From contig RWJK01001906.1 in assembly GCA_004335835.1 (NCBI GenBank), positions 1 through 24,732 on the forward strand: 24,732 nucleotides of DNA, read 5' to 3'. The position numbers and the translations under genes were made by a program. The notes beneath the pieces were generated by a model. The model searched no databases. It was not told the origin of the DNA and saw nothing but the letters and a program-made list of their open reading frames with translations. The DNA comes from Scenedesmus sp. ARA3 (lineage: Eukaryota; Chlorophyta; Chlorophyceae; Sphaeropleales; Scenedesmaceae). Shown one piece after another: positions 3,365 to 24,732 of the stretch. Each line of letters starts with the position of its first letter. Within the stretch, counting starts at the first letter, position 1.

Positions 3365-6242
3365 TCACGTGCTCTTGCCTCTGCTGCTCTTGGCAGTGCC
3401 GTTGGCCGGTTGCGGCACCCCACGCACTGCATCTGATGTAACAGGCGTACCTCCAAGGTCATGCAAGCTCCCACTGCCTTGCTGCAGCTGCGGCTCTGCC
3501 GGAGGCTTCTGCCCACTGATCGCCTTGAGCAGCTGCACGCCAGTCGCGCCAACGCTCGGCAGCTTGAACGCCGGCATGATCGAATCAGCCGGCGGTGTTG
3601 CTGCTGCCCCTGATGCTGCTGCTGCTGCTGCCGCTCCCACCTCATCGTCCACTGCTACTGTGCTTGTGGGGCTGACATTGGCGCTGCTGCTAGGCGAGCG
3701 CTGCGCAGACTGCGTGGATGCGGTGCCGCCATTGCCGTTGCCCTGCGCCGCGCGCGTGCTGCGCACCTGGTTGGCTGCCTGCAGCACCCTCTCGGGGTGC
3801 AGCAGGTTCTGCAGCGCTGCAAAGTGCTCGCCATCCTTAGGCTCTGCGAGGCCTCCAAGTCCTGCTCCAAAGCGTGTGGCATCCATTGGGCCAGATAGCA
3901 GCGTGAGCGCTGCGGTGTACTGCTGCACATTGGGCAGCGGCGCGTAGGCGATTGGGGACAGCCGGATGCGGCGGTTGGCTGGCACGCGCACATAGTCTGG
4001 GTCCAGCAAGTCGATTGCATCCACCAGCAGCTGCTGCAGCAGCAGCACGCGCGTCCACCTGAGGACGCAGGCAAGGGAGATATGCAGCGGCAGGGCAATG
4101 GGCGTTTAGGCAAGTGTAAGTGTAAGTCGGTTTCCAGCACAGCAGTCGATTGCGTCCACCAGCAGCTGCTGCAGCAGCAGCACGCGCGTCCACCTGGAGA
4201 TGTAGAAGAGGGTCGCAGCAGCAACAGACAGATGTCAGCATAGTGTGAGGTCTGGCAGGTCGATCGCGTCCACCAGCAGCTGCTGCAGCGGCAGCGGCAG
4301 CACACGCGTCCACCTGGAGATGTGGATGAGGGCAGCAGCAGCGGGCAGATGCGCAGGTGAGCAGTGTGGGAGGGCCAAGCAGGTCGTTGGTGTTCACCAG
4401 CAGCTGCTGCACCAACAGCACGCTCCTCCAGGTAAAATGGCAAAGACAGAGATGCAGATGCAGGCGGGATAAAGTGAATGCAGTCGGTACGGCAATTTTT
4501 TATTTGCTACGCCGCACCTGCTGCATCTGTCTCACCTGTGTGTGCGGGCAGCTGGCTCTCCCATTTATTAGGCCCTGTCAGCAGTGCCGCCAGGTCAGCC
4601 TCGATGGGCTGCAGCCGGCAAAGACAACACCCCCCCCCCGCCGCACCTCAACCCTCATCCCCTCACCTGTGTGTGCGCGCTGCTGGCTCTCCCATCCAGC
4701 TTGGCCCTGTCAGCAGTGCCGCCAGGTCAGCCTCTATGGGCTGCAGCCAGGAGACAACATAAACCTCCCACACCTAAACCCTCATGCCCTCACCTGTGTG
4801 TGCGCAATGCTGGCTCTCCCATCCAGCTAGGCCCCGTCAGCAGTGCCCCCAGGTCAGCCTCTATGGGCTGCAGCCAGGAGAAAACATCAACCCCCCACAC
4901 CTAAACCCTAATTCCCTCACCTGTGTGTGCGCGCTGCTGGCTCTCCCATCCAGCTAGGCCCGGTCAGCAGTGCCGCCAGGTCACCTTCGATTGGCTGCAG
5001 CCATGCCGCAAACTCGGGCTCAGCCTGCAGCTTGCCCAGGAAGGTGCTGTAGGAGTGCGTGTAGTGGCGCTCAGAGCCTGCAGGCAGGAAAGCAACCAGC
5101 AACAAATCAGACACAGCAGTGTGTTTGGTGAGTTGCAGCTTGCCCAGGAAGGTGCTGTAGGAGTGCGTGTAGTGGCGCTCAGAGCCTGCAACGCAACAGG
5201 TATTTCAAGCACAAGGCACAGCACGATTCAGCAGGTGCAGGAAGGTGCTGTAGGAGTGCGTGTAGTGGCGCTCAGAGCCTGCAATGCAACAGGTAGTTCA
5301 AGCACAAGGCACAGCAGGATTCAGCAGGTGCAGGTTGGTGCTGTAGGAGTGCGTGTAGTGGCGCTCAGAGCCTGCAATGCAACAGGTAGTTCAAGCACGA
5401 GGCACAGCAGGATTCAGCAAGTGCAGGAAGGTGCTGTAGGAGTGTGTGTAGTGTCGCACAGAGCCTGCAGGTAGAACATGCAGTAAGCAGATGCATAGAA
5501 TGCAGTGCTTCAGCAGTTTGTACAGTGGCACGTTCAAACATCGGATGCTGTGTGGCAGGAAGCTTCAACGAGCAGCGGGTGCCCAGCAAGTTGGTGTGCG
5601 TCAGCGCATGAAAACAGCCTGCAGTGAAGTGCTGCATGTGAAAGCACCACGCTTGCCAGCATAATAACAGCAGTGTACAGCAGGTTATCAAACACAGCCC
5701 CTCGCTCACCAAGTGGCGTGCAGCCCATCTGGCTGCCGATGGCGCGCTGGCTGCCCCTGCTGACCCTCAGCGGCACCACACACGCCCCGGAGCCGTCCTT
5801 GAGCCCTGCAGAGCAGCAGCAGCAACAGCAGCAGTGCCACAGGTTGAGGCGCAGTGGCAAGAGCTGCTGTGCACATCTTGCTGACTTGTCCTACACTGCT
5901 ACATGTGCACGACGAACAAGCCACAGCAGCGCCACAACTGCAGGCGTTGGCATGCAGCCAACAAGAACCATGCACATATTGCACTTGTGCGCTCCTTGCT
6001 GACTTCTCCTACACTGTTGCACATGCACAACGAACATGCCACAGCAGCACCAAATTTAAATCCAAGATGCGTGTATGCAATCAACACGCGCCATGCGCGT
6101 GGAACAAAAGGGCAACGAAGCTGGCACGCACCTGCGGTCATGGCCTTGCGCTTGCCCTTCACTGGCTGGTAGGGCTTCCGCTGCCTCGCCCCTGGGTGGT
6201 CGCGCAGCTCATCCGGCTCGTCCAGCCAGCCCTGCGCAGCAA

Positions 6243-6274
<32 letters not shown>

Positions 6275-23400: not shown

Positions 23401-24732
23401 TGAGCTCCCACAGCGCTTGCATGCTACAACCATAATGCAGTGAAGTCTCCAACAAGACTCCACTCCTGCTGCTGGCCTGTGCAGGTGCTCTGAACCAACT
23501 GCTCTTGAGCTTTGCATTGTATGATGTATGGATCAATCGCCGTGAACCAGCACCACGAGTTAACACGAACCAAGCCGCTTTGACAGTAATCTGGCCGCAA
23601 GGTCAGAACTGCACAAGCCCTGCTCACCGCTGTGCAGGTAGTAGTCGTCGCTGAGCTCCCACAGCGGCGGCGCTGCGGGGCTGGGCACAAAGTTGCCCAG
23701 GAACAGGTTGATGGCGTCCTGCTTCTCAGCGTCAGTGTATGCGTTGCTGTAGAAGCGCCTGCGGTGCAACAACAGAAAAACGAACAGAAACATATACGTG
23801 CAGGTGAGGGTGTCGAGTCAAGGTCGGTTCGATGGCGTCCTGCTTTGACGCGTCCATGTAGGCGCTGTCGCTGTCTTCAACAGCAAGTGATCATCTGCCG
23901 TGTCACACAGGCTGTTGAAAAGCTACCCACCTGATGGAAGTCATGAGGTCCCGTGACTGTGTGGTGGCCTCCCACTCGCCACGCTTCTTCTGGAAGAACG
24001 CGGCATGCGCCTCGCTGCCTCCATACTGCAGGCAGCAACAGCAGCAGCGGCAGCAGCAGCAGCATGCAGGTCAAATATGGTTCACGTTGCTTCTTCTGTA
24101 AGAACGCGGCATGCGCCTCGCTGCCTCCATACTGCAGGCAGCAGCAGCAGCGGCGGCGACCGACAGGAAGTCAGGTGGCAGGTTGAGGGCAGGGTGAGCG
24201 GGCAGTCGCATAGAACCTTGTTTGTTGTCCAGGTCACAGCTGCAGTGGAGGAACTGGACCACACGCTCACAGTGTCCTGATGGCATCAGCAGACTCTTCC
24301 TAACTGCGCATGATGCTGTGACATTGCAGCCAGCAACGGCTGCTCCGCACTTACAGGTGAAGCCAGTGACATGGAGGCAATCGAGAAGCGCACAAAAAGA
24401 AACCCTCAGTTATAGCAGCCGCGCTGAGCCACTTGTCCTCCGACATCCGATAAGGTGACAGTGACGCATTAATACTTCACTCACAGCCAAGAAGGAGCAC
24501 AGGAGACACGAAGATCACCGCTCAAACACAATGAGCGTGCGCCTCATCTGCAGCGCAACTGTGTGCCCCCATGCCTTCATACATCTTCATCAGCTGACAA
24601 TGCCACAGCAACCCCAGTAGAAAAGCACAGCAACCCCAGTAGAAAGGCACATCAACCCAGTTTATACAGGCCTACCTGCAGTGCGACGGTGTGCCCCATG
24701 CCTTCGTACATCTCCATCAGCTGCAGCGCAAT
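18973..24732 (-). CDS. Gene E: SAC-domain phosphoinositide phosphatase (FIG4/plant SAC1 type), 3' part
   Basis: Exons visible: 24676-24732 (cut by the window edge), 23931-24025, 23628-23758, 21846-23161, 18973-20505; GT-AG, phases 0,2,1,0, 1043 codons plus stop. The first three exons carry the end of a SAC domain: LMEMYEGMG, ALQYGGSEAH, RRFYSNAYTDAEKQDAINLF and LWELSDDYYLHS. This block follows the catalytic CX5R(T/S) loop, which must lie just beyond the right edge. The family removes phosphates from phosphoinositides on endomembranes; the YYLH end suggests the FIG4/plant SAC1-5 group. After it come about 950 residues of mostly Ala/Ser/Gln low complexity with islands of ordinary sequence: SFDNVLAKLPRNRPVRLYPV, two LNDIL motifs (GLNDILEIRTDVQ and PLNDILQIERQSD, one in each of the last two exons), TEWVVLDGHAVPY, PFKKSRRQLAD and a C-terminal domain-like segment (WWGLGDMYEVWAVAQ to the stop). 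That extension is much longer than usual for the family. Confidence 0.85.
20590..21180 (-). repeat. Echo array of the 5' edge of gene E last exon
   Basis: Six copies of the exon start (coding AIGPQGPVRAS after a TGTGCAG acceptor) precede the true exon. Equivalent acceptor edges: 20505 (true), 20640, 20746, 20852, 20961, 21055, 21162, i.e. steps 135, 106, 106, 109, 94, 107 bp. Copies nearest the exon are most alike; the outermost has lost its acceptor AG (GCACGC). Read-through from the first echo meets a TGA. Confidence 0.92.
21285..21700 (-). repeat. Echo array of the 3' edge of gene E fourth visible exon, with donors
   Basis: Four copies of the exon end (coding MISQPHKPPL then a GTGAGTGCTTTTG or GTGAG-type donor). 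Equivalent exon edges: 21846 (true), 21644, 21529, 21414, 21297 (steps 202, 115, 115, 117 bp). The donor GTGAG is intact in all four. Together with the neighbouring acceptor array this makes nearly the whole 1340-bp intron a product of duplicated exon edges. Confidence 0.92.
23340..23420 (-). repeat. Echo of the 3' edge of gene E third visible exon
   Basis: About 40 bp coding ALWELSDDYYLHS, identical in protein sequence to the true exon end, lies 251 bp further along in the intron (equivalent edge 23377; true edge 23628). The donor GT has changed to TT, so the copy cannot splice at the original position. Confidence 0.88.
23820..23880 (-). repeat. Diverged echo of the 5' part of gene E third visible exon
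   Basis: The intron before the exon contains DSDSAYMDASKQDAIEP-coding sequence, a diverged copy of YSNAYTDAEKQDAINLF. The match is in one frame over about 45 bp; the acceptor is not obvious. Confidence 0.65.
24084..24140 (-). repeat. Echo of the 5' edge of gene E second visible exon
   Basis: A near-exact copy of the exon start, ACTGCAG acceptor followed by YGGSEAHAAFL coding, with equivalent edge at about 24132 against 24025 for the true exon. It diverges where the true exon continues as KKRGEWEATT. Short CAG tracts (plus strand) sit beside both acceptors. Confidence 0.85.
24546..24597 (-). repeat. Echo of the 3' edge of gene E first visible exon
   Basis: A copy coding QLMKMYEGMGAH, against QLMEMYEGMGHT in the true exon (24676-24732). 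It lies about 80 bp into the intron, and the donor position reads CTGCAG|ATGAGG in place of CTGCAG|GTAGGC. The region from 24610 to 24650 also has a short CAGCAACCCCAGTAGAAA direct repeat. Confidence 0.8.

Follow-up and report, generated by a model that had tools for sequence, protein, structure and literature searches.

Exon-edge copies in the introns of the window

The stretch of DNA analysed here (the window, 24,732 bp) comprises positions 1–24732 of contig C1484 (GenBank RWJK01001906.1) from the green alga Scenedesmus sp. ARA3, in an assembly of 87,267,035 bases in 1567 contigs. Two proteins encoded in the window are 98–99% identical to proteins of Tetradesmus obliquus (T. obliquus), and we therefore treat the source alga as T. 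obliquus or a very close relative (Scenedesmaceae). The genes considered lie on the minus strand (Table 1) and comprise one that we call gene B, a leucine-rich-repeat-like gene (whose Pfam leucine-rich-repeat match falls under the curated cut-off), an endonuclease/exonuclease/phosphatase gene (PF03372), and a model for a Fig4-like phosphatase. Their introns hold partial copies of the edge of the adjoining exon, often several in a row, which we refer to as echoes.

The initial annotation of the window had reported more than 35 such copies in four genes, on both the acceptor and the donor sides of exons, and both statements held. When exon edges were aligned to the sequence adjoining them, 38 copies were recovered at 15 edges, with 76–100% identity over 24–184 bp; among them are a weak match of 24 bp and a duplicate of a terminal exon next to its stop codon. 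A single echo in the leucine-rich-repeat-like gene (78% over 43 bp, in the intron at 10703–10993) brings the count to 39. Among the predicted introns of the window, the exon edge matched its own intron (score ≥18) at 4/26 donor and 6/26 acceptor edges, where 0.00 and 0.03 edges, respectively, were expected from the introns of other genes. Direct repeat pairs were likewise concentrated at short range, with 82 pairs at offsets of 50–400 and none at control offsets of 3050–3400.

Gene B can be compared with two protein models. P0002, which a 4,051-base contig encodes in one unbroken frame of 575 residues, equals the echo-free gene B except at one aligned residue, and its tblastn matches include the echoes of gene B. 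The T. obliquus model P0001 contains a 38-residue insert that closely matches the translated first donor echo of gene B together with its intron piece; because of this matching insert, the donor echo is likely older than the split of the two lines. As to splicing around the echoes, the P0002 contig reads gene B without them and the P0001 gene model includes one echo unit.

The array at 7660–8369 alternates 110- and 113-bp steps within a 223-bp higher-order unit, the one at 15574..15755 has a period of 123 with 98% matches and an intron piece found nowhere else in the 87-Mb assembly, and the intron at 20506–21845 consists mostly of arrays (six acceptor and four donor echoes, in the spans 20473–21191 and 21204–21879).

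Table 1. Genes of the window and the exon-edge copies found beside their exons
Feature	Position	Strand	Remarks
Gene B	3368-9270	(-)	arrays
Last exon of gene B, true acceptor-side edge	4009..4058	(-)	P0002 residues 345-575 match at 4060-3368
Acceptor-side echoes of gene B last exon	4144-4193, 4259-4313, 4383-4430	(-)	98, 94, 81% identity
Three donor-side echoes of gene B exon 4921-5077 (true edge 4921-5003)	4536-4616, 4667-4749, 4794-4876	(-)	89, 93, 90% over 81-83 bp
Four acceptor-side echoes of gene B exon 4921-5077 (true edge 5026-5077)	5134..5464	(-)	100, 92, 88, 86% identity; tandem period 93
Two acceptor-side echoes of gene B exon 6132-6231 (true edge 6183-6231)	6310..6498	(-)	88, 90% identity
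Weak possible acceptor-side echo of gene B exon 6625-6771	6852..6875	(-)	24 bp at 83%, at alignment cut-off; score 14.0, below statistics cut-off
Donor-side echo of gene B exon 7569-7703 (true edge 7569-7612)	7475..7516	(-)	90% identity; exon end from P0002
Six acceptor-side echoes of gene B exon 7569-7703 (true edge 7660-7703)	7770..8369	(-)	90-98% identity
Leucine-rich-repeat-like gene	intron 10703-10993	(-)	single echo only
Donor-side echo of exon 10994-11075, leucine-rich-repeat-like gene	10864..10906 (approximate ends)	(-)	78% over 43 bp, score 18.5, 130 bp from true edge
Endonuclease/exonuclease/phosphatase gene (PF03372)	14577-about 18400	(-)	arrays
Copy of its terminal exon and stop-codon side (original 14577-14770)	14335..14521	(-)	86% over 184 bp; not a splice edge
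Two acceptor-side echoes of exon ending 14885 (true edge 14828-14885)	14974..15197	(-)	91, 90% identity
Two acceptor-side echoes of exon 15378-15509 (true edge 15451-15509)	15574..15755	(-)	100% (nearest, identical to exon), 88% identity
Fig4-like model (Fig4-like phosphatase)	18979-24732	(-)	arrays
Six acceptor-side echoes of exon 20169-20505 (true edge 20473-20505)	20610..21162	(-)	76-94% identity
Four donor-side echoes of exon with donor edge 21846 (true edge 21846-21879)	21297..21677	(-)	94-100% identity
Donor-side echo of exon 23628-23758, Fig4-like domain (true edge 23628-23666)	23377..23415	(-)	39/39 bases
Acceptor-side echo of exon 23931-24025 (true edge 23983-24025)	24089..24131	(-)	98% over 43 bp
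Donor-side echo of exon from 24676 onward (true edge 24676-24723)	24548..24596	(-)	90% over 48 bp

The terminal-exon copy sits about 245 bp downstream of its original (14335–14770). Elsewhere in the window, the gene at the left end carries an in-frame 90-bp coding repeat (MRRSLLQ motif; 1–187), and a 50-base run of N at 12516–12565, inside a GCA/CAG repeat, marks a scaffold gap of unknown length. No known RNA family was detected in the window at the gathering threshold, and DNA of relatives, sought in viral contigs, gave no match.

Occurrence across the genome

The wider occurrence of echoes was assessed in 25 stretches on 25 other contigs (246.7 kb), which were spaced by contig number and chosen blind to content. 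Genes were predicted ab initio with a purpose-written hidden-Markov gene finder, which started from a loose splice consensus, learned its parameters from the window plus the first 20 stretches, and was then run on all 25; the trained splice sites were CAG/GTGAG for donors and CTGCAG/ for acceptors (the slash marks the junction). From 385 predicted exons we dropped 36 that were under 15 bp and 29 that were under 60 bp and overlapped a repeat pair, and we also left out of the counts introns <60 bp or with adjoining exons <30 bp. Throughout the statistics, an edge match is a score of ≥18 between an edge and its own intron, with the expectation taken from the introns of other genes.

By this measure, 53/221 predicted introns in 16/25 stretches held a copy of their own edge, ten of them at both ends, and the pattern suspected in the window thus extends through the genome. 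Matches were found at 32/221 donor and 31/221 acceptor edges, where 0.05 and 0.00 were expected, and the interiors of exons, which served as a control, matched at 3/91 and 2/101. Bootstrapping over stretches places the proportion of introns with an echo between 12 and 37%. The two richest stretches account for 24 of the 53 echo introns, and 29/189 remain without them; the richest of all, L016, is an AP-4 epsilon gene whose echo-free assembly aligns in one stretch along PDB 9u9i_E. With unpruned gene models, 53/296 introns of the sample had an echo, and when introns were compared with their own flanking exons across the 25 stretches, 62/509 edges matched, as opposed to 0/509 when each edge was given one swapped intron. 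Direct repeat pairs in the first 20 stretches numbered 220 at offsets of 50–400 and 11 at control offsets of 3050–3400. Sample and window together gave 36/247 donor and 37/247 acceptor edges that match their own intron, a total of 73/494.

Introns with echoes are the longer ones, with a median of 458 bp compared to 260 bp in those without (1.8-fold), and the arrays, measured from the junction out to the farthest echo, take up 19% of the sampled intron DNA (16,443 of 85,813 bases). These figures agree with the proposal that the extra copies become intronic and that introns grow in the process.

Repeat clusters are also enriched at exon edges. Forty-four repeat clusters lie at exon edges and 18 elsewhere (two exon-only clusters omitted), where 20% at edges would be expected for a 122-bp unit (p 8e-18). 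In the strictest set, restricted to edge echoes with 88–152 bp steps and an alignable intron flank, the figures are 11 and 11 (p 0.0016), the latter being eight intron-only and three intergenic clusters. The predicted intergenic DNA of the sample contained no full-length tandem array.

Further repeats were noted at three places in the sample. A strong cluster of 109–118-bp repeats at L029:1714–2188 lies in predicted intergenic DNA, and may either be truly intergenic or point to an exon that was missed. At L023:7642–9888, 114–144-bp tandem repeats run inside predicted coding sequence that appears leucine-rich by eye, and the region has no Pfam family above cut-off; the array at 7642–8480 was assigned by script to the class that crosses exon edges. 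Finally, L020:33–7400 is a predicted gene with many exons of about 123–138 bp encoding a repeated cysteine-containing segment.

Anatomy of the arrays

With few exceptions, the copies sit beside their own exon edge. Among 145 copies, 114 end ≤5 bp from the predicted junction, the position of which was set independently of the echoes, and the copies reach a median of 49 bp into the exon. For sample exons ≥130 bp, the edge matched its own intron at 36/198 edges and the intron on the far side at 3/198. All 73 matched edges are direct copies, and no inverted copy was found at any of the 494 edges. Neighbour spacings (84 from the sample and 28 from the window) fall within 90–150 bp in 78/112 cases and never below 90 bp, much as the initial annotation had it (steps of mostly 93–135 bp); their remainders on division by 3 (23/27/28) reveal no preference for the reading frame.

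The splice dinucleotide is retained in 94/112 echoes (84%). When counted by side, GT is kept in 45/54 donor and AG in 50/60 acceptor echoes, so the claim that the arrays are a source of many cryptic splice sites appears sound as far as sequence can tell.

The repeated unit had been described as exon end, splice site, and intron piece. This is true mainly of inner copies: neighbouring inner copies have an intron flank in common in 33/49 pairs, compared to 5/23 for the outermost pairs (p 0.0004) and 8/40 for single echoes, so that the latter two are mostly an exon edge with its splice motif. Identity of the exon part is 0.918 for inner copies, 0.893 for the outermost, and 0.89 for single echoes. 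If e denotes the exon edge and i the intron piece, the flank pattern suggests the form e(ie)n, with one e more than i. For steps of 88–152 bp, the exon part measures 30–68 bp and the intron part 52–94 bp (5th–95th percentiles); a shorter intron piece might strip the true splice site of its context. The further claim that outer copies are more decayed survives as a weak trend; the innermost echo outscores the outermost in 21/29 arrays (p 0.024), with a rank correlation of −0.20 (p 0.06).

Introners, or another dispersed element, were considered as the source of the intron pieces and rejected, as neither of the two pieces tested has a match outside its own array in the 87 Mb.

Decay and probable past exon states

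Exons and their echoes differ at 135, 144, and 382 sites at codon positions 1, 2, and 3, respectively, over about 2,240 sites each, and neighbouring echoes differ from each other at 5.3, 8.8, and 17.4%. The synonymous look of these differences first hinted at coding constraint on the echoes. That idea was later weakened because changes confined to a single echo are common at codon positions 1 and 2 as well (7.4, 11.9, and 16.0% at the three positions). States common to several but not all echoes are distributed as 1.5, 1.3, and 8.8%. We read this pattern as roughly neutral decay of the echoes, on top of which lies a trace of synonymous changes that the exon underwent earlier, with unequal mutability of the positions a possible confounder.

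For three genes with proteins from relatives, the amino acid of exon and echo differs at 78/896 codons. Comparison with the relatives places the change in the echo in 57 cases and in the exon in seven (some of these exons being doubtful); in eight, both states occur in relatives, and in six, neither does. At one site of gene B, the exon encodes Gly, and Ala is found in all three donor echoes as well as in four of the six aligned homologues. This site argues against very recent gene conversion from the exon, and it illustrates that echoes can preserve older exon states, here one held by most relatives and absent from the exon.

Origin of the echoes

We think it probable that the echoes form arrays of the type named mirages, which are described as minisatellite-like tandem duplications across exon–intron boundaries in amphioxus Adh3 and globin Gb6 and Gb9 (PMC3087553); they are direct copies of an exon edge in the adjoining intron, and they likely arose by local tandem duplication and grew by unequal exchange. 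A first local duplication of roughly 120 bp, through slippage or template switching, would place a second edge in the intron (e-i-e). Misaligned e copies would then duplicate an (i+e) unit and lead to e(ie)n, and therefore inner units would have i in common and the outermost would be without it. The spliceosome would use the edge that is joined to the whole exon, such that the remaining copies become intron and the intron lengthens. Under selection the true exon would stay unchanged and, through gene conversion, it may renew its echoes, so the exon part would stay recognisable after the intron part has decayed. That the echoes arise by repeated local DNA duplication, by which introns would grow and a fossil record of the exon be left, we regard as likely.

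Several observations weigh against this account. If tandem duplication struck uniformly, each edge event should be accompanied by about four non-edge events, and the reverse is seen; part of that gap may come from detectability. The exon part, mostly 30–68 bp, is narrower than random breaks in a 120-bp unit would give. Matches occur, too, on the sides where coding regions start (3/27) and stop (2/28); these rates are below the 73/494 of splice edges by a difference that is not clear, and predicted ends are unreliable. Since the terminal exon of the PF03372 gene was duplicated with its stop codon, duplication is not limited to splice edges. Between exon and echo, identity is 0.90 in the exon part and 0.58 in the flank (null 0.34), echo–echo pairs behave likewise (0.90 and 0.59), and in simulation the flank identity needs about 0.20 substitutions per lineage compared to a total exon-part difference of 0.10. 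The flanks have thus diverged beyond plain neutral decay, and two readings fit, namely gene conversion from the exon or an initiation in which the flank is not copied. Differences between echoes favour third positions and stops make up just 6/245 amino-acid changes, so that the echoes may be under weak constraint or may have been copied repeatedly from the exon. All counts, moreover, rest on ab initio gene models, which are our own predictions. Plain tandem duplication of a junction-spanning unit, the explanation first put forward, does not by itself account for the outermost copies, whose flanks are mostly unalignable at about 89% exon identity; its core, repeated local duplication, is supported.

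A bolder version, which we entertain only tentatively, is that exons keep writing copies of their edges into introns genome-wide at a pitch of about 120 bp, with the constant exon re-templating its echoes by gene conversion, so that introns grow outward and arrays form a time series of past exon states. If true, such exon-templated writing would count as a mode of intron growth in its own right, acting across the genome and going beyond a curiosity of a few genes.

Unlikely, in our estimation, though less so than the remaining alternatives, is a copy-and-paste process anchored at the junction, in which transient template switching primed at the splice motif copies the splice hexamer together with some 45 bp of the exon to a site in the intron roughly 75 bp distant, leaving the flank uncopied in the first event. 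It would explain why so few outermost pairs (5/23) and single echoes (8/40) have a flank in common. In 17 acceptor echoes with an unrelated flank, the score at −6 to −5 resembles true sites (0.70, with 0.72 for true sites and −0.33 for intron interiors), whereas at −25 to −7 it leans towards the interior (−0.28, with −1.05 for interiors and 1.22 for true sites). These differences are modest, however (p 0.09 from interior and p 0.017 from true), the eight true sites beside such echoes also score low (−0.04), and old tandem units with decayed flanks would look the same. Furthermore, repair by template switching would at times give inverted copies, and there are none at 494 edges.

The arrays could also be ordinary minisatellites scattered at random, with an edge bias that stems only from removal of exon-internal copies and faster fading in introns. 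Intron-only duplications, free to decay in both copies, would indeed be lost sooner, and the sample does contain eight intron-only and three intergenic clusters. Yet we hold this to be improbable in view of the excess of edge clusters (44 against 18), which persists in the strictest set, and of the lack of full-length tandem arrays in predicted intergenic DNA of the sample.

We consider it very unlikely that the echoes are functional alternative exon edges under selection. Most retain GT or AG, 37 donor and 30 acceptor echoes exceed the lower quartile of true-site scores, P0001 includes a 38-residue echo unit, and differences are greatest at third codon positions. Against this, the spacing has no frame preference, the amino-acid change is on the echo side in 57/78 cases, and the 84% retention of the splice dinucleotide is what overall identity predicts (0.91 squared). 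An assembly artefact, suggested by a draft of 1567 contigs with one gap in the window, can be set aside almost entirely, since the copies have diverged (76–100% identity) and a matching unit occurs in P0001.

Intron lengthening is usually credited to transposons and drift. In the alga studied here, arrays that we attribute with some confidence to a single local process span about a fifth of the sampled intron DNA, and they supply many strong decoy splice sites for the study of splice-site choice. The process may help to explain the long introns of T. obliquus, whose mean of 462 bp is given as the longest of five green algae, with 230–302 bp in the others (PMC5966456).

Comparison with known systems

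Introners, as portrayed in PMC9860276, resemble the echoes in changing gene structure genome-wide, green algae included; they differ in being dispersed, near-identical copies, whereas the two intron pieces tested here were confined to their own array. In human segmental-duplication genes, internal tandem repeats at exon–intron boundaries also alter introns, although the units reported average 30 bp and belong to primate-specific paralogs (PMC2812944). Tandem duplication is an established source of new introns (PMC3443670, PMC4974935), and the duplication described in potato RdRp likewise crosses an intron–exon boundary; there a new intron results, whereas here existing introns are longer (PMC4974935). 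Plain minisatellites would be placed independently of exon edges, unlike the 44 edge clusters against 18 found with 20% expected, a distinction that is weaker at 11 against 11.

The closest counterpart is the amphioxus mirage, so that the arrays do belong to a named class, contrary to what was thought at first. Mirages, as described in PMC3087553, involve both 5′ and 3′ boundaries, as do the echoes (36/247 donor and 37/247 acceptor edges); many of their units retain splice signals (here 94/112); and their interior is homogenised with the boundary copy excluded, much as a common flank is found here in 33/49 inner and 5/23 outermost pairs. Units of the Gb6 mirage are 81–100% alike, and the same account covers length polymorphism, RT-PCR (reverse transcription PCR) data, and somatic instability, with regular splicing undisturbed. 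We class the algal arrays as mirages because the anatomy agrees, including the homogenised interior and the excluded boundary copy. Relative to that description, the lineage, the scale, and the anatomical detail are new, and we claim no priority for mirages in algae. In amphioxus, mirages are reported from single genes with units of 10–72 or 150–160 bp, whereas in this green alga they occur in a quarter of the sampled introns, at steps of mostly 90–150 bp.

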